From assembly GCF_017068395.1 (NCBI RefSeq), contig NZ_CP070618.1, positions 103,010 to 167,009 of the forward strand: a stretch of DNA of 64,000 nucleotides, read 5' to 3'. Position numbers and translations under genes: made by a program. Shown piece after piece: positions 11,317 to 57,325 of the stretch. The notes beneath the pieces are model-generated. The model ran no database searches and was not told where the DNA came from. It worked only from the letters and a program-made list of their open reading frames with translations. Within the stretch, counting starts at the first letter, position 1. Every line of letters begins with the position of its first letter. This stretch comes from Rhodococcus pseudokoreensis (GTDB lineage Bacteria > Actinomycetota > Actinomycetes > Mycobacteriales > Mycobacteriaceae).

Positions 11317-12305
11317 CTACGATTCGGGCACGAAGACAGTCACTGGATCGACGTCCGGTCTCTGCCCTTGGTACGACGGGTGCCGCAGCCCTCCGTGACG
11401 GTGACGGGCGACGTCGACCACGATGACGGGTTCGACCCAGCGCACCGCCTCGTACTCCTCCACGGCCGCGGCGTCGACCCCGAGCGGACTGGTGCGGCGC
11501 TCCAGGATGGCCAGCTTCTCCCGAAGTTGCCTGCGCACGGCCATGCTGAATCCTGTTCCGACCGTGCCCACATACTGAAGGACGTGGTCGTCGTCGTAGG
11601 CGCCGAGCACCAGTGCCCCGACCCGGCTGCGCAGCCTCCCTCGCCTGGAATCCAACCCAGAATTATGCAGCTAATTCGATTGCGCAAAAGCACCTTCCGC
11701 CACGACCGGGTTCGCTGTCCAGGCAGGTAGATCGACGACACTTTCTTGAACACCGCACCCTCCATCGCGGAATCGCGGGCCGCGGCCAGAATGACCTCAC
11801 TCTCGACCTGGACCCAGTGCGGCGGGACCTGGATGGGCAGGCCCGCGACGGGCAGCTGATGGGCAAGGTCGGCGAGTGCGGCACGGCGATCGAGATACGG
11901 GGCGTGCGTCAGGTCCTCCCCGTCCAGGGAGAGGACGTCGAAGGGGAGAAATGTCGCCGGCACCTGCCTGCGCAGCGCGGCGCCCGGTCGGACGGTGTGC
12001 ATTCGCTTCTGCAGCCGCGCGAATGAGGGGCCGCCCTGCGTGAGGGCGACGAGTTCGCCGTCGAAGACGATGCGGCCGCGGCCGCCGAACGCGGCGGTCA
12101 GCGCCTCCGTCACCTCGGGGTAGGAGGAGGTGACGACGGTCAGGTTGCGGGTCCACAACACCGGCGGGCGATCGCCGCCGACCGCGGCCAGGATGCGGCA
12201 GCCGTCGTACTTCATTTCCGCCGCCCAGAGACCGTCGGTGTCCTCGGGCGGCGGCCCGGGGGTGGCCAGCATCGGCGCGATCAGCCGATTCCCCGCTCTA
12301 CTCAT
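11317..12305 (-). pseudogene. ATP-dependent DNA ligase, frameshifted
   Basis: Reading from 12305, the nucleotidyltransferase domain is intact: motif I 'EMKYDGCR' with the adenylated Lys, motif III 'PFDVLSLDG', motif IV 'EGAVFKK' and motif V 'RSWRKVLL'. Near 11636-11642 the frame breaks. The OB-fold continues in another frame ('RVGALVLGAYDDDHVLQYVGTVGTGF') to a stop at 11317. One missing base in a run around GGCGAGGGAGG explains the break. The protein resembles the ligase domain of LigD or LigC, which seal breaks in non-homologous end joining. No Ku or polymerase domain is nearby. A sequencing error is as likely as a real mutation. Confidence 0.85.
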
Positions 12306-18094: not shown

Positions 18095-18862
18095 TCATTG
18101 GGCGACCCGCAACTCCGGCGCCGGCGACGGCGCGACGGGATTTCTTGTGGCGGTGGTCCATTCGACGTGCCCGCCGCAGCCGGCAACGGTGACCCGGGCT
18201 CGGCGCGGCCGGTGGCCCCGCGTGATGGCCTCAACGTCGAGGTCGAGGCCAGTCACCCGCCCCCGGCCGGCCGCGAGTCCGTGATAGCCGGCCACCTCCG
18301 CGCGCAGCCGGACATCGACGTTCGGCCATCGCCCGTCGACAGCCAAGACCGCCCCGGCCCTCCGCACCCTCGCGGTGACCGCCCTCACCCGGCTCGGTGA
18401 GATGTCCCGGTCACCCAGGCTGACCAGGACCAGGTCGAGGCCGTCGACCAGCACCGCGGCGATCGCTATCGGGTCGTCCCCTGGATCCCGGATTATCGCG
18501 CACCGGTTCAGGTCGGCGCCCATCTCGACGGCGGCGAGCAATCCGAGAGTCGGGTCGCCGACCACAGCGGCCCAGTGGCCGGAACCGGTCACCGCGGCAA
18601 GAAGACTCGCATGCAGGGACGCTGGGCCGGTGATCTGCGCGACGGTGCCGCGCACCAGCCCCCGGTGCACGAGCAGCTCCGCCAACGGACCCGCGACCGG
18701 CAGGGTCCGGATGTCCGCCGCTGCGGGTTGCTCCCCCACCGGACGCGGGTCGGAGCGGCCGATCCGGGGCGGCCCGGCCGAGCGCGCCGGGATCGCGTCC
18801 ATCCGCCGTCGCAGCTGCTCGATGCGGTCGGCCCTCGGGTCCACCGCCGCTTCGGCCTCCAC
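18095..18862 (-). CDS. imuA': ImuA'-like SOS protein (RecA-fold)
   Basis: The 255-aa protein resembles mycobacterial ImuA', a RecA-related accessory factor of the ImuA'-ImuB-DnaE2 mutagenic polymerase. Shared blocks are 'RIEQLRRRMDAIPAR', 'LVRGTVAQITG', 'VVGDPTLGLLAAVEMGADLNR', 'DGLDLVLVSL' and 'RGRVTGLDLDV'. The Walker A position is degenerate ('GPASLHASL'). The start chosen is GTG 18862 with GGGAGG 6 nt upstream. The longer frame to 19021 would place the LexA box inside the coding region. No imuB or dnaE2 is in the window, so it would have to act with chromosomal partners or as a decoy. Function is inferred from homology by eye. Confidence 0.7.
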   Translation of the reverse strand: MEAEAAVDPRADRIEQLRRRMDAIPARSAGPPRIGRSDPRPVGEQPAAADIRTLPVAGPLAELLVHRGLVRGTVAQITGPASLHASLLAAVTGSGHWAAVVGDPTLGLLAAVEMGADLNRCAIIRDPGDDPIAIAAVLVDGLDLVLVSLGDRDISPSRVRAVTARVRRAGAVLAVDGRWPNVDVRLRAEVAGYHGLAAGRGRVTGLDLDVEAITRGHRPRRARVTVAGCGGHVEWTTATRNPVAPSPAPELRVAQ

Positions 18863-18889
18863 AGCACCTCCCACGCCCGACACCTTCGT

Positions 18890-18905
18890 TCGAACATATG
18901 TTCCC
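18890..18905 (-). promoter_or_regulatory. LexA (SOS) box
   Basis: TCGAACATATGTTCCC matches the actinobacterial SOS box TCGAAC-N4-GTTCGA at 14 of 16 positions, with one perfect half. It lies 28 bp upstream of the GTG of the imuA'-like gene, where LexA binding would block transcription until DNA damage. Confidence 0.8.
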
Positions 18906-18981
18906 ATACGGCCGCCTGTCGGCGCGAGAGACTCCCAGTTACGGGCCACAGCAGGGACGCGCTGCGGCCGCCAACCGGGCG

Positions 18982-19027
18982 CCCCTATTGCCCCTACTAC
19001 CCATATGGGAGATAGGGGCAATAGGGG
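18982..19027. repeat. 46-bp perfect-armed inverted repeat
   Basis: Two exact 15-bp arms (CCCCTATTGCCCCTA and its complement) flank a 16-bp centre containing the palindrome CCCATATGGG. It lies 71 bp beyond the ADP-ribosylglycohydrolase stop and about 80 bp upstream of the LexA box. It could be a bidirectional terminator, an operator or a cruciform site. The same CCCATATGGG core flanks parAB. Confidence 0.8.
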
Positions 19028-19097: not shown

Positions 19098-20189
19098 TCA
19101 GTCGGCTGTGCCGCCGGTCGGGAGCCGGCTCGCCGCGGCAGTGATCTCCTCTGAATAGCGGGGCTCGAAGGAGGGCGAAAGACCCGCGGTGGCCCAGTAA
19201 CCGTTTTCGGGGTGGGCGGAGCCGATGAGTCCGCCGGCGATGCAGGCGATGGAGTCGGAGTCGCCGTTGCTGGTGGCCGCCCAGGCGAGCGCCTCCGGCC
19301 CTGTCAGAGGAGCCGGGTGGCCGTTGTCTGTGGTGGCGAGGTCGGCGACCAGCAGGGCCAGGGCGATGGCGCTGGCCGATTCCCAGCCCTCTCCGATCCC
19401 GGCACACGGGTCGCCGAATTCGGCCGGCGACAGCGGGCGGAGCTGTTCGAGGCGGCCCGCGGCGGCGGTGAGGATGTCCGCGGTCCCGTCATTCAGCCCG
19501 TCTACCAGGTACGACGACACGTCCCCGGTGATCGGGGCGAGGACCTCCCGCAGATACCGGTCCTCGGTCCAGGTGCTGGTGCCGTGGTAGATCTGCGCGG
19601 CGGCGGTGAGGGCGTGCTCGAGGAATCGGCCGCGGCGCTGCGGTGCGTGGCGGGTGGCGTCGGCGAGCAGCAACGCCGGCACCACGGCGCGGGGATGTTT
19701 GTGGGTGATCACCGCCTGCAGGGCGGTCAACCCCAACCAATACGGCTGCGGAGCGAAGGCGGTGGGCACCAGGCGCATCACTGCCCCGCAGCCGGCGGAT
19801 TCGACGGCGCCGTCGGTGTCGTACCAGCGGGCCCCGGCGCGGAGGTTGTGCAGCGAGCGCATGCAGGTGCGGCCCGGTGCGCGGGTGTTGTCGGGGTCGA
19901 CCTGCCAGAGCAGGAACTGCCGGACGATAGCGTCGGTGACCGTCTCGATGTCGTCGAAGTCGGTAACTTCGGCCAGGGCGTGGTGCACGGCCAGGGTCAT
20001 CTGGGTGTCGTCCGAGATGACCCACGGTCCGGTGGGTGGGGTGACCGGATACGCGGGCATCTGTGCGTAGCTGGTGAATTCGACCTGGTATCCCCAGGCG
20101 TCGCCGGCGGCCAGTCCGGTCATCGCGTTGGCGTACCGGATCTGGGTGTCGGCCGGCGCGGTGTGGTTGCCGGTCGTCGGTGCGGTCAT
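19098..20189 (-). CDS. ADP-ribosylglycohydrolase (DraG-like)
   Basis: The 363-aa enzyme belongs to the DraG/ARH family, which removes ADP-ribose from proteins, classically from arginine. Signatures are 'GLAAGDAWGYQVEF' at the N-terminus, 'ISDDTQMT' (Asp60-Asp61-Thr62, metal ligands) and 'NGDSDSIACIAGGLIG' (Asp310-x-Asp312, the second metal cluster). It ends an operon: its ATG overlaps the stop of the 56-aa gene (ATGA), and the 669-aa ADP-ribosyltransferase-like gene lies just upstream. This suggests that it reverses or neutralises that enzyme, as Tri1-type immunity proteins do for Tre1-type toxins. Cytosolic; no signal peptide. Confidence 0.9.
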   Translation of the reverse strand: MTAPTTGNHTAPADTQIRYANAMTGLAAGDAWGYQVEFTSYAQMPAYPVTPPTGPWVISDDTQMTLAVHHALAEVTDFDDIETVTDAIVRQFLLWQVDPDNTRAPGRTCMRSLHNLRAGARWYDTDGAVESAGCGAVMRLVPTAFAPQPYWLGLTALQAVITHKHPRAVVPALLLADATRHAPQRRGRFLEHALTAAAQIYHGTSTWTEDRYLREVLAPITGDVSSYLVDGLNDGTADILTAAAGRLEQLRPLSPAEFGDPCAGIGEGWESASAIALALLVADLATTDNGHPAPLTGPEALAWAATSNGDSDSIACIAGGLIGSAHPENGYWATAGLSPSFEPRYSEEITAAASRLPTGGTAD

Positions 20190-20356
20190 GGGGTCTCTCC
20201 TCGCGAGAGGGCGTAGGCGGCGGTGCGGACGGTCTCGATGTCCATCAGGTCCAGGTCGGCGACACGTCCGAGGTAGTCGGCGATCGCGTCCGGGGTCATC
20301 CCCTGATCGAGTTGCCGGCGGATCTCGTCGAGCTGCTCGTCGCTGAGTGCGGCCAT
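20186..20356 (-). CDS. 56-aa protein between ART and DraG genes
   Basis: The frame starts at ATG 20356 with AAGGA about 9 nt upstream and ends in an ATGA overlap with the ADP-ribosylglycohydrolase start, so translation is coupled. The product is acidic and helical ('LSDEQLDEIRRQLDQGMTPDAIADYLGRVADLDLMDIETV'). The first helix pair looks like a short HTH-like or tether segment. It could be an adaptor of the hydrolase or a small regulator of the operon. Confidence 0.7.
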   Translation of the reverse strand: MAALSDEQLDEIRRQLDQGMTPDAIADYLGRVADLDLMDIETVRTAAYALSRGETP

Positions 20357-20390
20357 CGCGGTAGTCCTTCCGTTGTCGCCCCTCCCGGGA

Positions 20391-20408
20391 GGGGACGTGT
20401 CATTTTAG
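20391..20408. promoter_or_regulatory. Dispersed motif copy between ART and 56-aa gene
   Basis: GGGGACGTGTCATTTTAG lies 16 bp beyond the ART stop, preceded by the palindrome CCTCCCGGGAGG. It is one of about ten copies of this motif in the window. Confidence 0.4.
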
Positions 20409-20423
20409 CTGGTAGATAATGTT

Positions 20424-22433
20424 TTACGCGGCCTTGGTCGCGCCGCCGCCGGTGCCGGAATCGGATTCGGCGACGAGGTCTTCGGCGACCATGTAGACCG
20501 TCGGCCGGCCACCGATGCCCTGGTGGTCGACCTTCACGCACCGCAGATCGGTGCCCATCGGGAGGACGACCTCGTCCTCGGAGGAGAAGTTCGAGATGGA
20601 CTTGAGTGGCAGTCCGTCTCGGGTGCGGACGACCATCATGTACGGCGGGTGGCCGGCGAAGGCGTTCGCGGTGCCGTGGTTGGTGGAGAAGCTGGTCACC
20701 TTGCCGATCTGCATGCGGGACCCGACCGTGAAGGCAGCGTCGATGTACTCCTCGGTGCTGCCCTTGAATCCGCTCGGCACTCGGGTGCCGCGCACCAGGG
20801 TCATCGGCGCCGTGTTCGGGTTGTGTTCCCGGAACTTGCCGAACGCCGAGTCCAGCTGCGACACCACGGTCTTGACGTGCCCGGACGGACTCGGGTCGCG
20901 GCCGGTGATCGCCGCATTGATCGCGTGGTAGCCGCCGCCGGTGTAGGTGGTCAGCGCGGTCCGCTCCTGATAGCTGAGCATCTTCTGCACGAACTGCGCA
21001 TTCGAGGTGGTCAACGACCCGATGCTCGACGTCTGCACCTGCCCGCCGGGGCCCACCTGGAACCCCCAGGCCTTCAGGTCGCCGGCCTTCTGTCCGATGA
21101 CGCTGTAGTCGCCGGCGGTTTCCTTGCCGTAGGCGCGGATTCCGCTGCGCCAGAGGCTGGCGTGGGTGTCGGCGCCGAGGCTGTGCGGTGGGATGTCGTG
21201 GTCGAAGTGCGGGATCACCCCGCCCCCGACCGTCGGTGTTCCCAGGGCACGTCGGTGCGCCTTCAGGTACGCGGCGTCGGCCTCGGCCGTGCTCGCACCG
21301 GCCGCGAGGGCTGTCGCCCGCGCCTGCTGCCCTGCCGCGTCCGCCGCCTGCTCCCGCAGCCGGCTCTTGTGCCGTTTGATGCCGTCGTGGATGTCGGCGC
21401 GGGCCGGTCCGCCGCCGAGTGCGTGGGTCAGGGTGTCCCTCGCCTCGGCCATCTCTTCGTCGATCAACGCCTGTTGCGCGGCCGGCGTGGATAGGGCTCC
21501 GGCGACCGCCTTCCGGGCCACGTGCAGCCCGACTTCGCCCTTCATCGCGTGGGCTTGTTTCTGCATCTCGGTCGCACCGGTCGGCAGCGGATCGGGCGCG
21601 GTCAGGACCGGAATTCGATTGGCCTTGGCCAGCGCGTCGTTCTTACTACTCGCCTGCCCCACCGGGTGGTACGCGTCGCCGCTGCGCTGCAGGATGATGA
21701 AGTCCGAGTAGCCGCGCCGGTAGATGGCGGTCCCGCCGTCGAGGAGGCGTCCCTCGACCTCGGTGACACCGGATCCGGTTTCCATCGGAATGGTGCCGGC
21801 GTTGTAGACGCCGGTATCCCGAGGAATCGAGGAGAGGCCGGGCTGTCCGCCCTCGGTGAGAGCCTGCTCCGCGGCCGGCGCGGCGCGGCGGTTCAGCGCT
21901 CGGGTGATCGTGTCGACCTCGTCGTCGGAGAGGGAGGCGAAGTAGGCGTCGCGTTCGGCAGCGGTGGACATGTCCTCGTGCAGGCCGAACTTGGCGGCGG
22001 CGAGGTCGTCGCGGGCTTCGCCCTGACGGCGCTGGGCATCGAGATATGCCTGTTTGGCGTCGTCGACGTCCTGCTGTTTCGCGGCGACCTCGGACTCTGC
22101 TCCGGTCCCTTCCGCGGCGGCCTTCTTCGCCTTCCGCAGCCGGGCCCGCATCCGGTTGACGGCCTTTCGGGCGTCGTCGGTCTCCGCGTCGGCTGCGGCC
22201 AGGTGCTGCTCGGCCTCCTCCAGCGCGACCTGTGCCGGGGTGAGCGTCGGGCTGGCGAGTTTCGCACGCTCGGCTTCGGCGTGCGCGATCAGCAGTTTCG
22301 CTGACGGCGGGTTGGCGTGGACGCTCGGCATCGGGGTCTCCCCCAGCACTGCCGGGTCGATTCCCAACGCCGACATCAGCTCCGGCAGGACGCTCGGGGG
22401 CGCCGCCTGCACTGCGGCCGCCGTCAGGGTCAT
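20424..22433 (-). CDS. ADP-ribosyltransferase-like protein with N-terminal coiled coil
   Basis: The C-terminal ~180 residues of this 669-aa protein carry an R-S-E class ADP-ribosyltransferase pattern: 'LVRGTRVP' (Arg548), 'TSFST' (Ser581-x-Ser583) and 'SSEDEVVLP' (Glu619-x-Glu621, the ExE pair typical of arginine modifiers). Upstream are a long Ala/Glu/Lys-rich coiled coil at about residues 65-150 and a central domain without a recognised fold ('GTAIYRRGYSDFIILQRSGDAYHPVG'). There is no secretion signal. It follows a small Cys-rich gene by 6 nt (AGGG before ATG) and precedes the 56-aa protein and the ADP-ribosylglycohydrolase. Likely a toxin, anti-phage effector or host modifier; the target is unknown. 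Confidence 0.82.
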   Translation of the reverse strand: MTLTAAAVQAAPPSVLPELMSALGIDPAVLGETPMPSVHANPPSAKLLIAHAEAERAKLASPTLTPAQVALEEAEQHLAAADAETDDARKAVNRMRARLRKAKKAAAEGTGAESEVAAKQQDVDDAKQAYLDAQRRQGEARDDLAAAKFGLHEDMSTAAERDAYFASLSDDEVDTITRALNRRAAPAAEQALTEGGQPGLSSIPRDTGVYNAGTIPMETGSGVTEVEGRLLDGGTAIYRRGYSDFIILQRSGDAYHPVGQASSKNDALAKANRIPVLTAPDPLPTGATEMQKQAHAMKGEVGLHVARKAVAGALSTPAAQQALIDEEMAEARDTLTHALGGGPARADIHDGIKRHKSRLREQAADAAGQQARATALAAGASTAEADAAYLKAHRRALGTPTVGGGVIPHFDHDIPPHSLGADTHASLWRSGIRAYGKETAGDYSVIGQKAGDLKAWGFQVGPGGQVQTSSIGSLTTSNAQFVQKMLSYQERTALTTYTGGGYHAINAAITGRDPSPSGHVKTVVSQLDSAFGKFREHNPNTAPMTLVRGTRVPSGFKGSTEEYIDAAFTVGSRMQIGKVTSFSTNHGTANAFAGHPPYMMVVRTRDGLPLKSISNFSSEDEVVLPMGTDLRCVKVDHQGIGGRPTVYMVAEDLVAESDSGTGGGATKAA

Positions 22434-22439
22434 GCCCTG

Positions 22440-22703
22440 CTATTTCAGGTGGTCGACGACCTTCTTCCTAGCTTCACGGCCCAATCGCCTGTTCGCGTTG
22501 GCTTTCGCAGCGGCCTTGTAGCTTCCGCACCCCGGGCAACGTCGACCACTTCCGTGGGCTTTCGAGCGGCACATGTGGGCATCGTACTGGCCCGGCGGCA
22601 TGTCCCCACATCCGAGTCGGTCTCGGATACCGAAGCGGGCTAGTCGATTACGACGCTGCGCCGCTCGGTGGACAGGGGTGATGAGGACGCCGTCGTGGGA
22701 CAT
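22440..22703 (-). CDS. Small Cys-rich protein leading the ART operon, 87 aa
   Basis: The C-terminal half reads 'CRSKAHGSGRRCPGC' followed by a basic helical tail rich in Lys, Asn and Arg, so it may form a small zinc knuckle bound to nucleic acid. It ends 6 nt before the ADP-ribosyltransferase ATG. An internal Met at about residue 44 would give just the Cys-rich part. I believe similar leaders precede other actinobacterial ART genes, but this is from memory and unverified. A variant dispersed-motif copy lies in its first half. Confidence 0.6.
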   Translation of the reverse strand: MSHDGVLITPVHRAAQRRNRLARFGIRDRLGCGDMPPGQYDAHMCRSKAHGSGRRCPGCGSYKAAAKANANRRLGREARKKVVDHLK

Positions 22704-23851: not shown

Positions 23852-24108
23852 TCTCGTCGACCTTCCGCTGTTCGGACTGCTTGGTGTCGCAGCAGTTGCC
23901 GATCGATCTGACCACTGGTCAGCGCATCTGGGCGGTGACCGACATGGAACAGTCCCCCGGTGTGCGGGCAAACGAACACGGCGAGGCCCTTCTCCCCGGG
24001 ATGTCTTCTGCGCACGGCCCTGGCGTCCGCGCGGCTGTGATAACCGCGGTGATGACACAGGCTGCAGAAGGTCCAGCGAGCGGCCGGATTGTGGGCGCGG
24101 GAGGTCAT
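23848..24108 (-). CDS. Small zinc-finger-like protein, 86 aa
   Basis: The segment 'FCSLCHHRGYHSRADARAVRRRHPGEKGLAVFVCPHTGGLFHVGH' places Cys-x2-Cys and Cys-x-His pairs about 30 residues apart and ends in GLFHVGH. This pattern is common in small actinobacterial plasmid and phage proteins with presumed nucleic-acid binding. ATG 24108 overlaps the stop of the cutinase-like gene by ATGA, and its own stop overlaps the next ATG, so three genes are chained. Confidence 0.7.
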   Translation of the reverse strand: MTSRAHNPAARWTFCSLCHHRGYHSRADARAVRRRHPGEKGLAVFVCPHTGGLFHVGHRPDALTSGQIDRQLLRHQAVRTAEGRRE

Positions 24109-26081
24109 ACCGACCGTCCGATCTGCAGCGTCAGCCAATCCGACAGCCAGGTGATCGCGTCGCGGCCTGCGTTATCGACGACCAGAGCGCTGTAGTTGGT
24201 GTGGGCGCCGGAGGTGAAAAAGCTCGCGGCCTCGAGCCCTTCTCCGACCAGAGCGGCCAGATCCTCGGCACCGCGGGACTGGGCCATGGTCGTCAACGAG
24301 CCGGTCAGCGCCGGCAGATCGAAATTCTGCGCCTGGGCGGCGATGGTGGTGGCCGCCTTCGAGGTTGTGCCGAGCAGCTCCGGAGGGGTCTTGGATGCCT
24401 TGCCCGAGAGCATGGCCACCGCGACCGAGGCCAGGTCGAGGCCAACGGGCAGCAGTCCGGTCATCGCCGCACCCGCTCCGAGCGGGTCGGGTAGCTGCCC
24501 GGGTGGTGGCAGCAGTTTCTCCACCGCGGTCCAGGCAATTTCCTGGATCTGTCCGATCAGGGTGGCGAGCCGGATGACGTCGACATTTGCGAGGATCGAC
24601 GCCACGAGCGCAGCAATCTGCGTGTACCCGGTGGGGTCCGGGATGACCGAGAGCACCTGCGACACCCAGCGAAGATCGACGGCCGCGGCCATCTTCACCA
24701 ACGGTGCGAACTGGTTGTTCAGCTCGCCGGCCACCTGGTGTGCTCCGCGGGCGTCGAGCGCGGCGACCTTCTGCGGCAGCATCGTGAGGTTGCGGAGAAT
24801 GCCAGGCACGTCGAGAGCTGTCACCCCGGTGGCGACGTTGAGGACCTGGCCCACCACCGTGGCCGGTTTCAGCACCGACAGCACATTCGAGGCCGTCGAC
24901 AGCGCATCGGCCGGGGTGGATGTCAGCGGGGCGAGCTGACCGTCGAGGGTGGTGGCCGCGGCCGAGAGCTGCGCCGCGTCCCCCGACGTCCCGGCCACAG
25001 ATGAGCCCGAATCGGCCAGCCTGCCCGCGGTGTCGGCAAGCGTCGTCACGGCGGTCAGCGCGGCCGACAGATCGGATTCCCCGGCGTGGGACAGCACCTC
25101 GGAGGCACTGTGTTCGGGGCTACCCACCGGGGCTCCGGCGAGCTGTCCGGCGGCGGCGTGCGCGGTCCCGGAGTCGATCAGATCCGCCATCGGGGCGAGT
25201 GTCTGTGCGATGGACGACGCCGTTGCGGCAACAGCGCCGACGTTGATGTTCGGCTCGGCGAGCTGCTGTCCGAGCGCGGCAACACCCCGGCCCAGCGCGG
25301 GCAGGTCAGCTCCGGAGAAATCCGAGGTCAGCGCGGTCGCCAGTTCGGCACTTCCGCCGACGTTGCTGGTGTCGCCCGTGCCGGTGGTTTTGCTCAGAAT
25401 CGATCCGAGCGAGCCGAGTAGCGGGTTGTCGCCCTTGCGGATCGAGCAGTACAGGTCGCCGGGATCGCAGATCGAGGCAACTCTGCCGGAGAGTGTGCCC
25501 ATTCCCTGGGGTCGCGGATCCGCGATACCTGCGCCGGAGGTTCGAGGCCCAACGATCGCCGCACCCTTGGTGCCGGCGCCGGGGTCGGCGAGCAGGCCGA
25601 CGGCCAGCACACGATCAGCGGGCACCGGCCCCTTGTCGTTGCCGATCCCCGAGGCGAGATCGCCCGCTGCATCGGCGCCCTGGGAGTAGCCGGTAATCGT
25701 GAACTTCGTGTTCCTGCACTTGCTCGACACCTCGGTGAGTACGGCCTCGGCCTTGGTGAGGGCGTCGACCTTGCTGTCGGCGTAGGTATGTCCGTTGTCG
25801 AACGCACGGGCCATGTACGGCAGGGTGTAGACCTCTGCCCGCCCGCCGTGGGCAGTGGTGATGGCGTCAGCGACCGGTGTGAGGATCCCGACAGGTTGGT
25901 GGGGGTCGGCGTTCTCCGAGGTCTCCCAGGTACCGGGGATCAGCAAATTGAACGTCGCCGCACAGCCGGTGGGGTCGGCGTGCGCGATAGCGGGGGCGGT
26001 CAATGCGACGGCACCGCCGGCGACGGTCGCGCACGCAACGAGAGCCACCACGCTGCGGGCTCTCGAACATCTTGCGGGCAT
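24105..26081 (-). CDS. Secreted cutinase-family protein with long C-terminal domain
   Basis: The signal peptide (residues 1 to ~35, ending 'APAIAHA') is followed by a cutinase/acetylxylan-esterase-type alpha/beta hydrolase: 'ITGYSQGADAAG' with nucleophile Ser133, and 'CDPGDLYC' (Cys205, Asp209, Cys212). The His expected a short way after the Asp is not visible. About 430 Ala-rich helical residues follow, far longer than normal cutinases (200-300 aa). The ATG at 26081 has GAGGTG upstream. Cutinase-like enzymes act on esters, in mycolata possibly envelope lipids. The gene shares a 22-bp promoter element with the conjugation operons, so it may condition the mycolate layer for DNA transfer or act as a surface adhesin. 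Activity is uncertain. Confidence 0.82.
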   Translation of the reverse strand: MPARCSRARSVVALVACATVAGGAVALTAPAIAHADPTGCAATFNLLIPGTWETSENADPHQPVGILTPVADAITTAHGGRAEVYTLPYMARAFDNGHTYADSKVDALTKAEAVLTEVSSKCRNTKFTITGYSQGADAAGDLASGIGNDKGPVPADRVLAVGLLADPGAGTKGAAIVGPRTSGAGIADPRPQGMGTLSGRVASICDPGDLYCSIRKGDNPLLGSLGSILSKTTGTGDTSNVGGSAELATALTSDFSGADLPALGRGVAALGQQLAEPNINVGAVAATASSIAQTLAPMADLIDSGTAHAAAGQLAGAPVGSPEHSASEVLSHAGESDLSAALTAVTTLADTAGRLADSGSSVAGTSGDAAQLSAAATTLDGQLAPLTSTPADALSTASNVLSVLKPATVVGQVLNVATGVTALDVPGILRNLTMLPQKVAALDARGAHQVAGELNNQFAPLVKMAAAVDLRWVSQVLSVIPDPTGYTQIAALVASILANVDVIRLATLIGQIQEIAWTAVEKLLPPPGQLPDPLGAGAAMTGLLPVGLDLASVAVAMLSGKASKTPPELLGTTSKAATTIAAQAQNFDLPALTGSLTTMAQSRGAEDLAALVGEGLEAASFFTSGAHTNYSALVVDNAGRDAITWLSDWLTLQIGRSV

Positions 26082-26187
26082 GGGCACCTCATCTGTCGCC
26101 GGCGAGCTTGGACGCTCACCCCTCGATGCGGCCCCGGGATGCCACGCGCAGCGTCCGAAGAACACACACCGATGGGGTGAGGTGCAT

Positions 26188-40630: not shown

Positions 40631-43603
40631 TCATGGGTTTGTCGCTCCTGGGTTCTCACTGTTCTGTCGCTTTCTTGGCGTGTTGAGTTCGCGGAGGGCA
40701 GCGCGCCGCCCGTCTGGGGTGAGTCGGTAGTAGGTGCGGCGTCGTCCTGGTCCGCATCCGGGTGGGGCGCCCGCGAGCCAGTCGGCCTCGTCTTCGTCGC
40801 GGCTGGTGAGCCATCCGGCTTGTTCGAGACTTCTCAGGAGTGGGTAGAGGGTGCCGTGTTGGATGCTGGTGCATTGATGCAGGCCGTGGCCATAGAACTC
40901 CTCGGCATCGGTTGTGGTGAGGTGGCGTAGCAGGGTGAGCGTGGTGCGGGTCATCCGCAGCCGACCGACGGGGATATCTCTGAAAGGTTTGAGGAGGCCA
41001 GGGTTTCGTGGCGGTGTCATTGCTTCGCGCACCGCGTGTGCGAGGGTCTTCGCGTCGGGCATTGCGAGGGCACTGCAGGCATGCAGGGCGGCGGTCATCA
41101 GTGGCTGAACGTGCTCGTTGTCGAGTTCGCGCAGCAGCGTCTGTCCGTGTGGGGTGGGCTTGTGCGCGGTGCCGCGACGGGATCGGTGGAACAGGGGTGC
41201 TCCGACGTGATGTTCGAGGAGTCGGAGTTGGTGGAGCAGGCTGTTCGACTTGATTCCGAGGTAGCCGGCGGCGGTGCCCAGGGAAGGGAACGCCATCGTG
41301 ATCCGGAAGCGGTGCAGCCGAATCCAACCGTGCAGGGTGCCCTCGACAGATGCGCGGATGATCGGTGGGAGGTGGTCGAAGGTCATGATCATCTCGGTGC
41401 GGCTCGCGACGCCTTGCGGCCGAACCGGGATGCCGTGCTGATGCAGGGCATTGTTGACGCGCATCTGCTCGGTGCCGAGTTCGACGGCGATGTCGGCGGT
41501 CGAACGAAGCTGCGCGCAGTACTGCTCGCGCAGCCAGACCGGGTCGATGCGGAAGGGTGCACGGGCCCTGCGCAGGGAGATCCCGGCTTGTTTGGCGAAT
41601 CGGGTGATGATGTGGCGGCCGATGCCGGTGTCGGCGGCGATGTCGTTCAGGCTGCGTCCGGCCTGGATGTATTCGCGATCGAAGAACTCGCGGGTGAACA
41701 GCCTGGCGGCGTGTTGTTCACGCAACCATGCGGCGGGTGCCGCATGGGGCGCCCACTGTCGTCGTGGTTGGTCGAGACGTTCCATCGCGATGCGGACGTG
41801 CTCGAGGTGGACGCCGAGAACCTCGGCGGCCTCCCTCGAGGAGCGGTGTTCGTCGACGACCAGGCGACTGACCTTGTCGGGGTCGAGGTCGCCGGTATCG
41901 ATGCCCGGCAGGGCGAGCCCGTCGGCGAGGTCGGTTGGTGGCGACCAGGTCAGTGGTTCGTCGATGGCGAGGTTAACCAGTATGGATTCGGCGTGTTCGT
42001 TCAGGGCTCGGCGCAGCGGCGCTGCCATGGCGGTGGTGAACTCGACGAAGGTGCCGCGGTCATTGGGGCTGCGGAACGCCAGTGGGTGGCGGTGGTCGGC
42101 GAGGTCGGCACCGGACAGCAGTTGATGCAGGTGACGTTGGGCGTGCCGCAGCCGTCCTTGACGGTGCTTGCCGGGGTGCGCTCCGACCGAACAGGCGAGG
42201 TCACGCCACTGGTCCCAGGTGATGGTTTCGGCGGGGATCTGCTCACGTCTCCGCTGGTAGTCGATCGGTGTGCCGTGTTGGTCGAGGTGTTCGGTGATGC
42301 GGCAGAGAAGCACGAGGACATCGGTCAGCGCCGATCCGCTGGGAAGCTTGTCGAATCCTTGCAGGGTGATGCTCAGGTTGGCGGCGGTGACGCGTGGGTT
42401 CAACAACCCGGCGTGGGTGTCCATCCGCTGCGAGGGATCACCGGGGACGGTCAGCAGGACACTGAGAGCAGCTCGGAACAGGTCGGTGTGGAAGCCGCCC
42501 GCGACGGGCAGCAGACGGCCGGCCCAGTCGGGCCAGAACAGTTGCGGCAGCATCCGGATCCGCGCAGCCCCATCGGCGCGCGGTATTGCGGCCGAGGCAG
42601 TGATTGTCCGCATGCGCAGCCGGACGGCTCCGGGTAGATCGGCGTCGACGGCGCGCAGATAGCGGTTGGGAAATTGGCTCGGCATGACCACAAAGTGTCG
42701 CTTGGTGAACTCTGGTGGCGAGACCCGTTGTGGATTAGGATGGTTCGTCACCAGTGTGCGCAGCTCGTCGATCGCGCTAGCCTCGTCGTCCCCGAGAACA
42801 GTCCTGGCGCGAATCAGAAGCGCCGCGGTCAGTGCCGCATCGAGGTCGGGCGGGCTGCCGTTGCGCGGTTGCGGCGGAGTCGCGTGCCGACGCGGGTTGA
42901 TCGCGCGGGCCGCAGCGATCGCGGCCGCGCGGTCCAGGCGCAGCAACCAGGCCACCACCAGATGCAGATCGGTCAGTGTCGCATGGGCCGGATCGGGGCC
43001 AGGTGCGCGGGCCGCGGCCATCAGTTGATCGATCCAGGACTGGGCATCGAGGACTTCGTCGGGGGCGGGTAGGTCCGCCGCGGCGAATAGCTCGCCGCCG
43101 CAACGCAGCCACGACCGACTAATGGGGCGGCTGCAGGTCGACGCCGGTGGTGCGGTGGCGCCGCCGACGATCTGCACTCGGGGCGTTGCTCGGCAGTCCG
43201 GTCCCGGGCAGGTGTCGTGCAGCAGCAGCCGGTGCCGACCGCAGACCATCGCCCAACTCGACCGCCACGACAGTTGCCAACGCCCGTCGGCCTCGGCCAA
43301 ACAGCGCGGGCAGAACCGTGAACAATGCATCGATAGCCGTTCGATCCCGGGGACGGCGGGACCGGTCGCGGCGTCGAGACGACGGGCCGGCAGCCCGGTA
43401 GCGGCTTCGATGCGGCGCAGCTCCGTGGAATCAAGTTCATCGACCAGCTGGCGGATCGATAGACCGAGGTGATCGGTGCCCAAGGCGCGCAGCACTTCCC
43501 GCGGGGAGGTGTCGTTGCGGCGGGCCAGCGCGTCGATCCAGGAATCCAGGCTCTCGCCGGCGGTGATCGGTGTTCGCAACGGCAGAGTGGTGATCGTGGT
43601 CAT
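40631..43603 (-). CDS. tniQ: TniQ family protein fused to LysR- and PadR-like winged helices
   Basis: Of 990 aa, residues 1-200 are a TniQ domain ('ESLDSWIDALARRND', zinc-finger Cys/His: 'CPRCLAEADGRWQLSWR', 'MVCGRHRLLLHDTCPGPDC'). A middle region has several HTH-like repeats with 'GLALPGIDTGDLDPDKVSRLVVDEHRSSREAAEVLGVHLEHVRIAMERL'. About residues 750-825 resemble a LysR-type wHTH ('GTAAGYLGIKSNSLLHQLRLLEHHVGAPLFHRSRRG'). About 885-975 resemble a PadR-type wHTH ('QHGTLYPLLRSLEQAGWL'). TniQ selects the insertion target in Tn7-like systems, so these domains probably read DNA. Ordinary TniQ proteins are 300-700 aa. The last codons lie inside the left-end TnsB sites. Confidence 0.87.
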   Translation of the reverse strand: MTTITTLPLRTPITAGESLDSWIDALARRNDTSPREVLRALGTDHLGLSIRQLVDELDSTELRRIEAATGLPARRLDAATGPAVPGIERLSMHCSRFCPRCLAEADGRWQLSWRSSWAMVCGRHRLLLHDTCPGPDCRATPRVQIVGGATAPPASTCSRPISRSWLRCGGELFAAADLPAPDEVLDAQSWIDQLMAAARAPGPDPAHATLTDLHLVVAWLLRLDRAAAIAAARAINPRRHATPPQPRNGSPPDLDAALTAALLIRARTVLGDDEASAIDELRTLVTNHPNPQRVSPPEFTKRHFVVMPSQFPNRYLRAVDADLPGAVRLRMRTITASAAIPRADGAARIRMLPQLFWPDWAGRLLPVAGGFHTDLFRAALSVLLTVPGDPSQRMDTHAGLLNPRVTAANLSITLQGFDKLPSGSALTDVLVLLCRITEHLDQHGTPIDYQRRREQIPAETITWDQWRDLACSVGAHPGKHRQGRLRHAQRHLHQLLSGADLADHRHPLAFRSPNDRGTFVEFTTAMAAPLRRALNEHAESILVNLAIDEPLTWSPPTDLADGLALPGIDTGDLDPDKVSRLVVDEHRSSREAAEVLGVHLEHVRIAMERLDQPRRQWAPHAAPAAWLREQHAARLFTREFFDREYIQAGRSLNDIAADTGIGRHIITRFAKQAGISLRRARAPFRIDPVWLREQYCAQLRSTADIAVELGTEQMRVNNALHQHGIPVRPQGVASRTEMIMTFDHLPPIIRASVEGTLHGWIRLHRFRITMAFPSLGTAAGYLGIKSNSLLHQLRLLEHHVGAPLFHRSRRGTAHKPTPHGQTLLRELDNEHVQPLMTAALHACSALAMPDAKTLAHAVREAMTPPRNPGLLKPFRDIPVGRLRMTRTTLTLLRHLTTTDAEEFYGHGLHQCTSIQHGTLYPLLRSLEQAGWLTSRDEDEADWLAGAPPGCGPGRRRTYYRLTPDGRRAALRELNTPRKRQNSENPGATNP

Positions 43604-44661
43604 CGCCTCACCTGCTTGCGCTCGACTCTCGTGCGGGTCGCGGCTTCGAGCCGGTGGCGTGCCTTTTCGGAGGCTTCGTCGATGCGGACGGTGTCGAGCA
43701 GCTCCTGTGACATCGCCTCGGCTCCGGTGCGGATCGCTTTGAAGCAGCCGCGGTTGATCAGCGTCATCAGCGACCCGATGTGCCCGCCGGTGCGGGCGAA
43801 CAGGTAGTCGGCCAGGCCGGTGAGCTGTCCGGGCTGCCAGCAGGTGAGCACCAACTGTTTGTCGACCGCCTTGACCAGGGATTTCCAGTGACGGTCGTGG
43901 GCGAAGGTGCCGACTTCGAGGCGGGTCCAGCGCCGGGCGCTTTGCGCCAACGCGGCCGAGGACCCGGACAGGCCCTCCTCGAAGAACCGGCGTTCTCCGA
44001 GACCGACTCCGGCGTAGATGAACGTCACCGGCAGCTCATTGGCCAGCCATTTCAGGTGATTGCTGACGGCGAGCCCGTCTCGGCTGTTCTGGTCGATGAA
44101 GTGAATATCATCGATGATCCCGACCCGCGAATCACACGAGAGGACGCAGTCCAGGGCGTAGGTGGCCAACTGGGCGGCGCTGCCGCGATCGGCGCCGGGA
44201 TGCCCGTAGAACTGGCAGATCATCTTGTTCAACGTCCGCAGCGTGGTGTTCGAGGTCAGACCGACCCGGAACACCGGAATGTGCTCATCACCGGACTCGG
44301 TGACCGGGCCGCGGCGACGCAGGGCCTGGCGGTGATAGTCGCGGCCGAACAGGTTGACGATGGTCGTCTTGCCCAGACCGGGGAACCCGTCGATGACCGC
44401 CGCGCCCCGAACACGATCGGGATCTTGACGATTCGAGGCGACGATCAACTCCAATTCGTCGCGCACCGCCTTCAGCTGCGGGGTGGCGATGGTGCCGAAG
44501 TTGGCGTGCCAGTCGTGGCGGGCGTCGTCATAGTCCTCGCGGGCGTCACTCCCCAAGGCGGACAACGCCGTAGCGGTAAGGGTGTCGGGCCGGGTGCGGG
44601 GCGCGGTGTCGACGAACCGGCGCCACCCGTCCTTGCGGGAGAGGCTGTAGGCGCTGCTCAC
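43600..44661 (-). CDS. tnsC: TnsC/TniB AAA+ transposition ATPase
   Basis: The 353-aa AAA+ protein has Walker A 'GFPGLGKT' at residues 92-99, Walker B 'VGIIDDIHFI' (Asp184, Asp185), and 'RTLNKMICQFYG' between them, the usual TniB/TnsC layout. It forms ATP-dependent filaments on target DNA and bridges target selector and transposase. ATG overlaps the tnsB stop by four bases, and its stop overlaps the tniQ start likewise. Confidence 0.9.
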   Translation of the reverse strand: MSSAYSLSRKDGWRRFVDTAPRTRPDTLTATALSALGSDAREDYDDARHDWHANFGTIATPQLKAVRDELELIVASNRQDPDRVRGAAVIDGFPGLGKTTIVNLFGRDYHRQALRRRGPVTESGDEHIPVFRVGLTSNTTLRTLNKMICQFYGHPGADRGSAAQLATYALDCVLSCDSRVGIIDDIHFIDQNSRDGLAVSNHLKWLANELPVTFIYAGVGLGERRFFEEGLSGSSAALAQSARRWTRLEVGTFAHDRHWKSLVKAVDKQLVLTCWQPGQLTGLADYLFARTGGHIGSLMTLINRGCFKAIRTGAEAMSQELLDTVRIDEASEKARHRLEAATRTRVERKQVRR

Positions 44662-46703
44662 TCGAGCACCTCCAGCGCGTCGGCGTAGAAGTCGTCGACG
44701 TCGTCGAGGATCTCGCTGTCGTCATCGTCGTCGCCAACCACCGGCGGGCCCGAGCTGGTGGTGGCGGCGCTCAGCGCCGGAACAGGGTCGGCGGCCAGTT
44801 CGAGCTCGGCTGCCGCGGCCAGGCCGCTGCGCTCGGCCGCCAGCCGGGCGGCCATGCGCCGTTCGCGCCGGTCGAGAACCTCACCCGCATCCCACCGGCT
44901 CAGCAATGTGGCCAGCGTCTCGGCGGGGTCGGTGAAACGGTCGGTGCGGCGGGCGAGGATGCGGGCGTAGCGGGCGGCCTCGTCGGAGAAGGGAGTGCCC
45001 AGCATCGGCGCGTGTTCCCAGTCGAGCTGATGCCACTGCCCATCGCCCGGGTCTTGAAAGTAGATGTGGCGGACATCGTCGTCGTTGACGCGAAACGGCC
45101 ATTTCCCGGCGTCGAGGCCGCCGTAGGGGCTGGTCGCGTTGCGGTAGCCGTCCAGTGCAGGACCGTTGTAGCGGCGGCCGTCGATCTCGACGCCGTAATG
45201 CTGGATGGTGCGTTTGACCACCCGCAGGAACTCCAAGGCGAGCTCCGGGGCGGCCGGGATCCGCAACACTCCCGCCTTGGCGATGCCCAGGGCGAACATG
45301 TCATTCGGCGACATCGCCAGATTCGGCCACTCGGCGACCGCGATCCCGTCATGGTCACTCGGGTGGTAGACCGTCACGATCCAGTCGCGGATCACATCCT
45401 CGAGCTCGTGCAGGAACAAAAACGCCTGCTCCTCGAGACCTTCTCCGCGGCTGTGCAGGTCCGGGCCCTTGTAGGCCGGAAGATGTTGTATCAGACCCTC
45501 TCTCAACGAACGAAAGAACCTCTCGACCGTGGGCTTGTCGGTGGGCTTGCGCGGTTGGGCCGGCTGGATCGAGATCCCCAATCGGGCGCAGACCCCGATC
45601 ACATGCGCCGACAGGAACGCCTTGCCGTGATCGATCACCAGGGTCTCGGGCGGGCACCAGATCTCGGCGTCGGCGCCGGTGTTCTCCTCGGTGAACACCA
45701 GATGCTTCGGCAACCCGTGCACCGGCCCCAACGCTGGGCGCCCCGCGCTGCGGCCTGTGACCGACTCGAACAACACACTGGCGACATCAACCGATTTCGT
45801 GGACACCGGGGTCACCTTCAACCCCAGGATCTGCCGGTCGAAGAGATCCTGCGCGACCGTCAGCTGCGCCCGCACCCACCGACAGGTCACCGGCTCCATC
45901 GCGAACACATCCAGATCCTGGGTATCCAGAATCAGATACTCACCCGGACGCGTGGCGCGCAGCCGGCCGTAAACCCCCTTCGGGCGTTGGGCGATCGAAC
46001 GCCGCGCCTTCGCCGACCCACTCACCGCGTTCGTGCCCTTAACCAGCTCTGCCAGCCGCCGATAGGCGGTCGCCTGCGACGGCAGCGCCACCACTCCCAC
46101 CCCGTGGTCGCGCTCGAGCCGCTCGGCGGCTCGCATCAGCACCGCCGAGCGGGTCGGTGTCGACGCCGACACCCCCGCCGCCAGCTCCGCGGCCACCGCC
46201 GCCTCCCAGCGCGGATCCACCGTCGAGCCGCGGCCACGGCCGCGCCGGTCATCGACCAGCCCCGCCTCACCGGCATCCCGGTAGGCGGCCACCCACCGCT
46301 CGACAGTGCGCGACGCCACCCCCAACTCCGCGGCCTTGGCCTCGCAGCGTGCCTTCAGCCCCACCGCCGGCGCATAGCCGGGGCGGGGCTCATCTGTGCG
46401 CGCGGCCTCGGCGTAACCGGACCTGTAGCCGGTCAACACCTCCCGGACATGCTCGCCTCGCGCTGCGGCCTGCTCCCGCTCGGCCGGTGACAGCCCCGCC
46501 AGCACCAGCCCCGGATCCAGACCTTCCTCGACCGGCTCCAAACCACGTGCCCGCGAGACGAACTCCGCCAAAGCGAAGCTTCCGTAGCGGCCGTCCGCGT
46601 ACTCAACGACCACCTTACGGCCGTCGAACTCCACGACCCGCGCCGCGTCGCCGTCGACCATCAGCCCCGCCCCGACCGCGACCGTCACCGTGCGCGCGTT
46701 CAC
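44658..46703 (-). CDS. tnsB: TnsB-like DDE transposase
   Basis: The 681-aa Mu/TnsB-type integrase has an N-terminal HTH ('ELGVASRTVERWVAAYRDAGEAGLVDDRRGRGRG'), the DDE catalytic core with Asp in 'YLILDTQDLD' (~259), Asp in 'LVIDHGKAF' (~355) and Glu in 'PTVERFFRSLREGL' (~394), and a C-terminal beta-barrel plus an acidic tail. It joins the 3' ends of the element to target DNA. The start is GTG 46703, four bases inside the tnsA stop; the frame to 46976 is open but not protein-like. The acidic tail ('EILDDVDDFYADALEVLE') probably contacts TnsC. Confidence 0.93.
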   Translation of the reverse strand: MNARTVTVAVGAGLMVDGDAARVVEFDGRKVVVEYADGRYGSFALAEFVSRARGLEPVEEGLDPGLVLAGLSPAEREQAAARGEHVREVLTGYRSGYAEAARTDEPRPGYAPAVGLKARCEAKAAELGVASRTVERWVAAYRDAGEAGLVDDRRGRGRGSTVDPRWEAAVAAELAAGVSASTPTRSAVLMRAAERLERDHGVGVVALPSQATAYRRLAELVKGTNAVSGSAKARRSIAQRPKGVYGRLRATRPGEYLILDTQDLDVFAMEPVTCRWVRAQLTVAQDLFDRQILGLKVTPVSTKSVDVASVLFESVTGRSAGRPALGPVHGLPKHLVFTEENTGADAEIWCPPETLVIDHGKAFLSAHVIGVCARLGISIQPAQPRKPTDKPTVERFFRSLREGLIQHLPAYKGPDLHSRGEGLEEQAFLFLHELEDVIRDWIVTVYHPSDHDGIAVAEWPNLAMSPNDMFALGIAKAGVLRIPAAPELALEFLRVVKRTIQHYGVEIDGRRYNGPALDGYRNATSPYGGLDAGKWPFRVNDDDVRHIYFQDPGDGQWHQLDWEHAPMLGTPFSDEAARYARILARRTDRFTDPAETLATLLSRWDAGEVLDRRERRMAARLAAERSGLAAAAELELAADPVPALSAATTSSGPPVVGDDDDDSEILDDVDDFYADALEVLE

Positions 46704-47473
46704 GCCACCACCTCCGCCGACACCAGCGTGTCGCCGCCGAGAACCCGCGACAGATCCGCCACCAGCCACGATCGCCACAACAGGTGCAGGATCACCGGTC
46801 GCACCAGCCACTGCGGCACCGACAGGCCCAGCCGCCGTTCCAAAGCGGAGATCGCCACCGGCACGACCGCCGCATCGATCACCGCCGGCACCAGTTCGGT
46901 CGCGATCGTGGCAGGCCGCCGATACCCGGCCAGAAAGCGCAAGTTCTCCACCAGCACCGCATCGGCACCCGTCCATACCTCGAACCCGAAACCGTGTCGC
47001 TCACACACCGCCCTCGTCCACGCGAACTGAGCCGCAACCTTCGGATCGGCAACGCGGGCAGCTGCCTTCACGTCCACCACCGTCAGCGTTCCATCCTTGT
47101 GCGCCAGCAGCAGATCCGGCACATGCCGTCGTTTCCGATCGCCATCGACACCTTCGAGCAGGAACGGTTGCGCCGCGATCGCCACCACGGTCGGGTCCTG
47201 GTCCGCTAGAAGGATTCTCGCCAGTTCCAGACGGCTCTCGTAGACCACATGACCACCCGTGGTAGCCGACCAGTACCAACCCGAATAGTGCCGCCGCCCC
47301 TGCCACGACCGGAACTCCCGCACCGGACGGCCCGCCAGCACCTCCTCCACCGGTAACCGCCGCAACGTCGTATCGACGAACGCTCCGTCGTCTCCCCGGA
47401 ACCGCACGGCCACTTCCGACCCCGGCACAACTCCCGCCAAACCAGCCCACATCAGGCTGCCCTCATTAGTCAT
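46700..47473 (-). CDS. tnsA: TnsA-like transposase endonuclease subunit
   Basis: The 257-aa PD-(D/E)xK nuclease has Glu near 77 in 'VYESRLELARILL', Asp near 118 in 'HVPDLLLAH' and Lys near 133 in 'LTVVDVKAA', spaced like Tn7 TnsA. TnsA nicks the 5' ends so that transposition is cut-and-paste, not replicative. The C-terminal region ends in helices that would bind TnsB. ATG 47473 is chosen; the longer frame to 47593 would translate through the right-end TnsB sites. Confidence 0.88.
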   Translation of the reverse strand: MTNEGSLMWAGLAGVVPGSEVAVRFRGDDGAFVDTTLRRLPVEEVLAGRPVREFRSWQGRRHYSGWYWSATTGGHVVYESRLELARILLADQDPTVVAIAAQPFLLEGVDGDRKRRHVPDLLLAHKDGTLTVVDVKAAARVADPKVAAQFAWTRAVCERHGFGFEVWTGADAVLVENLRFLAGYRRPATIATELVPAVIDAAVVPVAISALERRLGLSVPQWLVRPVILHLLWRSWLVADLSRVLGGDTLVSAEVVA

Positions 47474-49211: not shown

Positions 49212-50047
49212 AACGCCCCAGGGAGTGGGGTGTCGAGTTCAGGGAGAGGGATCGGTCCGGGGACCGGGACCGAGGCGGGCGAGAGAAGCGGCTTCTGGCT
49301 CGGGAGCTCGTCGGTGTCCTCGCTGGCCTGCGGAGTCGTCGTAGGGAGCGCGGTCGTCGGGGCCGGTTCCGGAGTGCTCGGGTTCGGAATTGGTGCCGAG
49401 AAGTTCGGGTCAGGCCGCACAGCGGTGTCCGGCGCGAGCATCGCCACCTCGGACATGTCGAGGGTGGGCAGGGGAGTGTCGACCACCCATCGCTGCCCGC
49501 CGCTGATGGTGTCCTCGACGACGAGCGTCACTCGAAGGTGCCCGGCCTGAGTCGGGATCGTCACCTCAGCCTTGCGCGTGCCACCTTCTGCGTTGATCAG
49601 TTCGCTGGCCGTCGGACCGGTGATGGCCACCATCGTTTGCGGCCGTGCGGCCAGCAGGGTGTCGCCCGGTTGGACGGAGGTGTATCGGGCGATCACCTCG
49701 GTCCACTTGGTATCCGAAGGCGTGGCGTCGACGTATGCGTGTGCGTACGCCATCGCGGTGGCCGGGGCGGTGGCGGCCACCTTGTTTGCCGGTTTGCCGG
49801 CCACCGCGGACTCGCGGACCGGGGTCAGCTCGTAGCTGATGGGCTCCACCTTTGCCGGTGTGGTGCTCGATGCGGCGGCCGTGGTGGTCTTCGCGGTGTT
49901 CGTGGCCAGCTTCTGCTCGCCGAAAATCATGCCGATGAGGAACAGTCCCAGGATCGCCGACACGACGGTGATTGCCAGGTTGGTGCGTGAGTAGAGCACC
50001 CATCGGCGGATCGGCGCGAGGACGGGGTTGGGACCGGAGGATGTCAT
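49208..50047 (-). CDS. VirB8/TcpC-like membrane protein, 279 aa
   Basis: One transmembrane helix (residues ~25-45) is followed by a periplasm-facing domain with 'PATAMAYAHAYVDATPSDTKWTEVIARYTSV' and 'RKAEVTIPTQAGHLRVTLVVEDTISGGQRWVVDTP', consistent with an NTF2-like VirB8/TcpC fold. A Pro/Thr-rich tail follows. It overlaps both neighbours by 1-4 bases. VirB8-type proteins nucleate the inner-membrane complex. Confidence 0.72.
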   Translation of the reverse strand: MTSSGPNPVLAPIRRWVLYSRTNLAITVVSAILGLFLIGMIFGEQKLATNTAKTTTAAASSTTPAKVEPISYELTPVRESAVAGKPANKVAATAPATAMAYAHAYVDATPSDTKWTEVIARYTSVQPGDTLLAARPQTMVAITGPTASELINAEGGTRKAEVTIPTQAGHLRVTLVVEDTISGGQRWVVDTPLPTLDMSEVAMLAPDTAVRPDPNFSAPIPNPSTPEPAPTTALPTTTPQASEDTDELPSQKPLLSPASVPVPGPIPLPELDTPLPGAL

Positions 50048-57226: not shown

Positions 57227-57273
57227 AGTTATCCACATACCCCGTTGAACCCGAAGCGCACTTTTTGCCACAG
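57227..57273 (+). promoter_or_regulatory. Promoter of the rightward conjugation operon
   Basis: The 22-bp block at 57227-57248 is identical to those at 26 kb and 56 kb. -35 TTGAAC, an 18-bp spacer and CACAGT follow. The leader to the GTG is about 50 nt. Confidence 0.78.
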
Positions 57274-57325
57274 TGCTCCCGCATCACTCCCGCAGTGGTG
57301 TCAGACCGTGCGAAAGGAGCCCGCG

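Follow-up and report, generated by a model that had tools for sequence, protein, structure and literature searches.

A 64,000-nucleotide (nt) stretch of Rhodococcus pseudokoreensis DNA (GCF_017068395.1, NZ_CP070618.1, positions 103,010-167,009; hereafter "the window", whose own numbering is used for feature coordinates) carries three co-directional genes that encode an R-S-ExE ADP-ribosyltransferase (ART), a 56-amino-acid (aa) protein, and a DraG/ARH-type hydrolase. We read the locus, with moderate confidence, as a three-gene effector module carried by actinobacterial plasmids and made up of an ART and two antidotes, of which one would act as an enzyme and the other by binding. In such a module, the ART would spend NAD+ to ADP-ribosylate proteins, most likely at arginine; the DraG/ARH enzyme would strip the ADP-ribose marks within the producing cell; and the small acidic protein most likely binds the ART and blocks its activity. 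An N-terminal domain common to other plasmid proteins (the "header") would dock or target the ART, and the module would benefit its plasmid either as an addiction-like system or through action on a rival or recipient cell. Addiction, host control, transfer, and defense are all candidate purposes. The window's own ART gene is incomplete: 44 residues into the header, a stop codon in frame divides it.

The features of the locus, with the basis of the assignment in parentheses where one applies, are as follows (P0005 is an intact ART homolog).

19098..20189, minus strand: hydrolase of the DraG/ARH fold, 363 aa, with ISDDT at residue 58 and GDSDS at residue 309 (Pfam, PDB matches, motif count)
20186..20356, minus strand: acidic three-helix protein, 56 aa, candidate non-enzymatic ART inhibitor (open reading frame (ORF), conservation, structure prediction)
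20424..22433, minus strand: ART reading frame that stays open for 669 aa after the in-frame stop; it lacks the first 47 residues of P0005
20475..21029, minus strand: catalytic ART domain, R-S-ExE, corresponding to about residues 516-700 of P0005 (Pfam, alignment, AlphaFold, fold search)
20571..20579, minus strand: ExE motif, Glu619 and Glu621 (ORF translation, alignment)
20685..20693, minus strand: Ser581-x-Ser583 (ORF translation, alignment)
20790..20792, minus strand: Arg548 (ORF translation, alignment)
21972..22238, minus strand: coiled-coil hairpin of two long helices between the header and the middle domain (AlphaFold model of P0005)
22299..22574, minus strand: header, Cys-rich, basic, and helical; the N-terminus of intact homologs, interrupted in the window
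22440..22442, minus strand: in-frame stop codon dividing the header from the remainder of the ART (translation; the genome search also gives one stop)
22440..22703, minus strand: 87-aa ORF that ends with the first 44 codons of the ART gene (comparison with intact homologs)

Results

Linkage of the three genes

Among 401 genomes of the family, we found the ART in 13 (E ≤ 1e-10) and the hydrolase in 24 (E ≤ 1e-20). All 13 ART genomes also encode the hydrolase (P = 2.7e-18), as do 12 of 12 when the window's own genome is set aside. For gene order we used the 36 loci in which the 3' side of the ART is readable, that is, 38 loci less L014 and L094; the 38 are not 38 independent events, because several are near-identical plasmids or genomes. 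The small ORF lies directly 3' of the ART in 33 of the 36, including L007, where it was recognized through a hidden Markov model (E = 1e-6). The hydrolase or a remnant of it follows in line after the ART in 28 and sits divergently upstream in one (L010), while in the remaining seven (L005, L006, L011, L012, L013, L029, L090) it does not adjoin the ART. The 56-aa gene is the closest companion of the ART. An initial reading of the window without database searches (the sequence-only reading) had proposed looking for conserved four-gene neighborhoods in other genomes.

The three loci without the adjacent small ORF are those of the divergent ARTs L006, L029, and L090, in which a different small CxxC protein comes next; in L006 and L090, a homolog of the small ORF is found about 2.5 kb from the ART. 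These CxxC proteins (L006 17059-17226, L090 6057-6224, and that of L029) are perhaps an alternative partner. A hydrolase set apart from the ART takes several forms: in M. avium p1 about 63 kb of the plasmid separate the two genes, in M. rhodesiae the hydrolase lies elsewhere in the genome, and the genome of L029 (G130) likewise has one at another place. Two Nocardia genomes outside the 401, with near-identical ARTs, have only remote hydrolase relatives (34-35% identity over part of the sequence), and no hydrolase was found in two plasmid records among the seven non-adjacent loci. One genome (G209) carries the small gene and the hydrolase together without any ART.

The ART: catalytic domain and structure

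The ART exceeds the Pfam cut-offs of two families (PF03496, 36.2 bits against 23.4; PF01129, 28.3 bits against 22.3). The sequence-only reading had placed the ORFs and Arg548, Ser581, Ser583, Glu619, and Glu621 exactly where we find them. Across 58 aligned homologs, the arginine, the first serine, and the first glutamate are invariant, and the second glutamate is kept in 57, the lone exception (P0087) being a sequence that stops at that point. With an ART fold carrying R, S-x-S/T, and ExE, the protein belongs to the R-S-E ADP-ribosyltransferases of the ExE type, and the ExE signature predicts that it most likely transfers ADP-ribose onto arginine residues of proteins.

An AlphaFold model of P0005, built from the alignment of 58 sequences (mean pLDDT 89), comprises a helical N-terminus whose first 20 residues are poorly predicted, a hairpin at residues 113-201, a five-strand domain at 258-308, a helical middle, and the ART domain. 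The coiled coil that had been assigned to the whole N-terminal half is real, but it is confined to this short hairpin, formed by helices 113-154 and 160-201. In a fold search that covered the ART part of P0005 only, the matches included ExoS (14.4), the Listeria ART-ARH pair (14.4), Plx2a (14.3), C3bot2 (14.1), VIP2 (14.0), and 6dre (13.6); as these are effectively tied, the class of target cannot be read from the fold.

An incomplete ART gene in the window

Many of the 90 ART homologs are 716-784 aa long, and those with a complete N-terminus open with a header such as MCRSKAHGSGRRCPGCG. In the window, the final 44 codons of the 87-aa ORF specify such a header in the reading frame of the ART, and the stop then cuts it off; intact relatives begin 47 residues before the 669-aa frame. 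By this comparison, the 87-aa ORF is not an independent gene. Owing to the stop, the window copy is probably inactive or altered; since the 669 codons past the stop are open and have an ATG start, a shortened product is possible. Some homologs are listed with shorter N-termini, and the sole one checked at the DNA level (USK13) has an uninterrupted full-length frame.

Intact ART copies exist (for example, L008, L019, and L092), also on other Rhodococcus plasmids. Overall, the ART is intact in 28 of the 38 loci and broken or truncated in 10 (the window, L014, L027, L028, L081, L084, L085, L088, L089, and L094), some of which may reflect sequencing or assembly errors. We considered and rejected a programmed split at the header, raised by the fact that the breaks in the window, G231, and the second copy in G272 all fall in the first 56 residues: ordinary decay is enough to explain the split, because other copies are broken at about residues 90-184, 346, 409, 445, and 490-500, or are truncated. 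A "toxin decays first" pattern was likewise set aside. Eight loci have a broken ART with the small gene and hydrolase intact versus three with a broken hydrolase and an intact ART, an imbalance that the roughly 2:1 ratio of gene lengths can explain. Pairwise dN/dS for the window's genes is low (0.00-0.23 in 14 comparisons, values that do not isolate the window's own lineage).

The two candidate antidotes

The stop of the 56-aa ORF overlaps the start of the hydrolase by 4 nt, an overlap that had been noted from the sequence at the outset. The small protein is predicted to form three helices (pLDDT 91), is acidic (pI 4.06, charge -7.5), and has 15 invariant positions among 11 aligned sequences. 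By analogy with Bsi of the Bxa-Bsi-BAH system (see below), it most likely binds and blocks the ART.

The hydrolase matches PF03747 at 136.5 bits (cut-off 26.2) and retains both metal-binding motifs, which places it among the ADP-ribosylglycohydrolases of the DraG/ARH type; its nearest PDB sequences are R. rubrum DraG (2woe), ARH1, and Lmo0067 (8za7_A). Both motifs are kept in 35 of 35 hydrolases picked for the count, which omits the broken or partial L002, L025, L039, L048, and L087 and the remote L050-L054. The protein falls below the NCBIfam equivalog cut-offs for both DraG (TIGR02662, 39.1 against 337) and Tri1 (NF041672, 22.9 against 490). Its fold, motifs, and co-occurrence with the ART suggest that it takes ADP-ribose marks off inside the producing cell, and a role as enzymatic antidote is well supported by the sequence. 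In R. opacus PD630 (L002 17521-21904; compare L039), genes for a DUF6262 protein and a pair of tyrosine recombinases sit within the hydrolase, with the ART and small gene intact. The hydrolase matches of NC_012520 (R. opacus B4) and CP095404 likewise begin at residue 59, and this shared break suggests one preferred insertion site.

The header and its other carriers

WhiB-like proteins on mycobacterial plasmids carry this header as well. A header search returned 38 proteins, of which 32 bear a WhiB-type C-terminal CxxC motif (29 of these also fit the Cys-cluster pattern of the header); the other six are five ART pieces and one different fragment (P0128). The Pfam WhiB match is under the cut-off in all five members that show one, and UniRef calls several of the proteins found 4Fe-4S Wbl-type. 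Eight of the 32 share their longest contig with an ART cluster, as judged by equal contig sizes, and p1-JPH1 carries both an ART and a WhiB-like header protein, so at least nine WhiB-like header proteins lie with an ART. One metagenomic WhiB-like protein (P0091) has three tandem header-like units. A Microbacterium plasmid protein combines a weak header match (E = 1e-4) with a PI3/PI4-kinase-like match that is below the cut-off (E = 7e-4), and its header part also touches DUF2795.

Three cysteines are invariant in 14 aligned headers, and zinc-ribbon models pick up a few members at scores below the cut-off, which makes metal binding by the header plausible. At E ≤ 0.001, header matches are found in 16 of the 401 family genomes, namely, 12 ART genomes and four weak cases (E 5e-5 to 8e-4). 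Among 376 genomes of the phylum, the header search returned the window's own genome, three weak matches, and nothing else, and phage records gave no header match. No MuF model appears among the Pfam matches of six homologs with a full N-terminus (E ≤ 5) or of 14 headers (E ≤ 0.05), a sequence-level comparison that a very divergent MuF domain could escape.

The distribution of the header points to a docking or targeting module. A bolder proposal, which we think unlikely, takes the header, with its conserved cysteines, basic helix, and helical unit, for a docking or delivery domain, so far undescribed, which actinobacterial plasmids would place on an ART, a WhiB-like regulator, and a kinase-like enzyme; these effectors would act jointly on the host or recipient at transfer, with the ART held under a binding inhibitor and an ADP-ribosyl hydrolase. 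That an ART and WhiB-like proteins encoded on the same plasmids have the header in common offers a testable lead to how these plasmids reach their target in the cell.

Replicon and neighboring genes

The window covers bases 103010-167009 of contig C5 (167,009 bases) in a 9.87-Mb genome of six contigs. With its genes for a ParA, a peptidoglycan hydrolase, and two ATPases, one FtsK-type and one VirB4-like AAA_10, the contig is most likely a replicon separate from the chromosome that has transfer-type genes; the nearest relatives sit on Rhodococcus plasmids. R. opacus PD630, pNSL1, and pVAPN1571 share the order ParA-type ATPase, small gene, DUF2637, more genes, cutinase family protein, ART, small ORF, and hydrolase. 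The window matches this order, with its DUF2637 gene assigned from position alone.

Several neighbors on the minus strand deserve mention. Directly 3' of the hydrolase, 18095-19021 encodes an ImuA'-like DnaE2 mutagenesis accessory protein (NF058630, 163.8 bits, cut-off 65). The 686-aa cutinase-family protein at 24105-26165, which recurs 5' of the ART on plasmids, scores 107 bits on the Culp6 model, below the cut-off of 570. A DNA-ligase-like ORF lies at 11340-12305, and by eye its C-terminal part seems out of frame in the translation. TniQ, TniB, and helix-turn-helix (HTH) transposase-like proteins at 40631-46976 are probably a Tn5053/Tn7-like transposon on the replicon. The region 47625-55286 and, on the plus strand, 57179-59449 together encode an M23+SLT+NlpC/P60 hydrolase, a VirB4-like AAA_10 ATPase, and an FtsK/SpoIIIE ATPase, a probable transfer apparatus.

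Alternative explanations

The module could instead be a reversible switch for host take-over, in which the ART modifies a host protein (e.g., RNA polymerase, as with T4 Alt) in favor of the plasmid and the hydrolase resets it, in a DraT-DraG-like cycle. The best PHROG match of the ART is indeed an Alt-like RNA polymerase ART family (36 bits), the header is also found on WhiB-like proteins, WhiB proteins bind the sigma subunit of RNA polymerase, and no secretion gene adjoins the ART in PD630, pNSL1, or pVAPN1571. However, the Alt-like match spans only 74 residues (480-553), the ART domain is just as close to toxins in the fold search, and we know of no dedicated small partner for DraT-DraG; we give the switch a low probability. 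Delivery of the ART to recipient or rival cells, via plasmid transfer or a type VII apparatus, would make the header a loading signal and the small protein and hydrolase a shield for the donor. It would fit the transfer-type genes on the replicon, the position of the ART, small gene, and WhiB-like gene of M. avium p1 directly before an ESX locus, the MobF relaxase that comes after the module on pVAPN1571, and the placement of a single N-terminal domain ahead of differing C-terminal domains. Yet neither a signal peptide nor a conserved YxxxD/E was seen on inspection by eye without a program; the three tandem repeats of P0091 are more in keeping with a binding domain than with a secretion signal; and WhiB-like proteins are intracellular regulators. 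Delivery, too, seems to us rather improbable.

Phage defense, with infection freeing the ART and phage-borne DraG relatives serving as counter-defense, is in our view very unlikely. In its favor, hydrolase relatives occur in 27 of 50,697 phage records (28-50% identity), with no match to the ART in any record; the small gene is not nearby in the three actinophage loci examined (L103, L104, and L105); and on M. avium p1 about 5 kb separate the ART from a preceding VapBC pair (L005 9289-9902) and an AbiEii-family gene lies near the distant hydrolase (L057 1-255). Against defense, there is no PADLOC model for the hydrolase or small protein, the sole match being a weak one to DndD (E = 0.044), over the coiled coil of P0005, and the Rhodococcus and Prescottella loci of PD630, pNSL1, and pVAPN1571 come after replication and partition genes. 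The sequence-only reading, which had proposed an intracellular toxin-antitoxin, an addiction module, or a phage-defense switch with a small adaptor, is partly supported. Carriage of the ART itself by phages was rejected: it is found in 0 of 50,697 phage records, and neither the header (22 stretches) nor the ART alignment (20 stretches) gave a confirmed case when scanned against viral contigs. Compatible with any of these rivals, and a serious contender though still short of an even chance, is a degenerate locus, with the ART dead in the window copy and the other two genes left over as immunity. The in-frame stop at header residue 45 and the 10 of 38 loci with a broken ART speak for decay; the 669 codons still open with a start codon right after the stop, the 28 intact loci, and the identity of the pre-stop header to that of P0005 speak against it.

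Comparison with known systems

The plasmid-borne module was not described in the open-licence literature that we searched by titles and abstracts, and the text of PMC5434932 does not contain "ADP-ribos". The closest experimentally studied case that we found is Bxa-Bsi-BAH. Bxa is an ART of Bacteroides prophages (PMC11699363): the hydrolase BAH neutralizes it, the small protein Bsi does so moderately by binding, and the N-terminal domain of Bxa is also fused to other toxins. Both systems thus place an ART, a small non-enzymatic protein, and an ADP-ribosyl hydrolase side by side, with an ART N-terminal domain common to other effectors. The likeness is one of anatomy alone: an ART, an adjacent small ORF without a predicted enzymatic domain, and an adjacent ADP-ribosyl hydrolase. 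Bxa has a MuF N-terminal domain and resides in Bacteroidales prophages, whereas the present ARTs have no MuF by Pfam and reside on plasmids of Mycobacteriales, where binding by the small protein is putative.

The Listeria ART-ARH effector-immunity pair (PDB 8za7) is a precedent for the window's ART and hydrolase; to our knowledge, it has no counterpart of the small third gene. The sequence-only reading had likened the pair to Tre1-Tri1. An ART with an opposing hydrolase stands, and Tre1-Tri1 is among the nearest precedents (PDB 6dre, which we take to be this pair, is titled as an ADP-ribosyltransferase toxin/immunity pair; Tre1 is a type VI effector), but the window hydrolase scores 22.9 bits on the Tri1 equivalog model against a cut-off of 490. 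T4 Alt is echoed by the PHROG match of the ART, which is partial only, and DraT-DraG by a hydrolase that is related to DraG but reaches 39.1 bits on the DraG equivalog against a cut-off of 337.

In a comparative-genomics survey (PMC3482391), ARG-domain immunity proteins (Imm-ARG) strictly accompany R-S-E ART toxins. The window shares the pairing of an ARG domain with an R-S-E ART; in that source the toxins have secretion or trafficking domains, none of which is recognized here. ARG-centered host systems without a coupled ART have been predicted to counter viral ARTs (PMC9503650), and the phage-borne hydrolases may mirror this logic in reverse.

Pairs of an ART effector and an ARH antidote are already known. 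What stands out more is that the small partner is almost always present, that the module sits in plasmid backbones, that no delivery domain is recognized, and that the header is shared with WhiB-like proteins; new here are the incompleteness of the ART, the companionship of the small gene, the co-occurrence of ART and hydrolase, and the header on WhiB-like and, weakly, kinase-like proteins. If the three-gene effector module is real, it ties ADP-ribosylation to plasmid backbones in rhodococci and mycobacteria, and Actinobacteria gain a plasmid-borne counterpart of the Bacteroides-prophage design of an ART with two immunity proteins.

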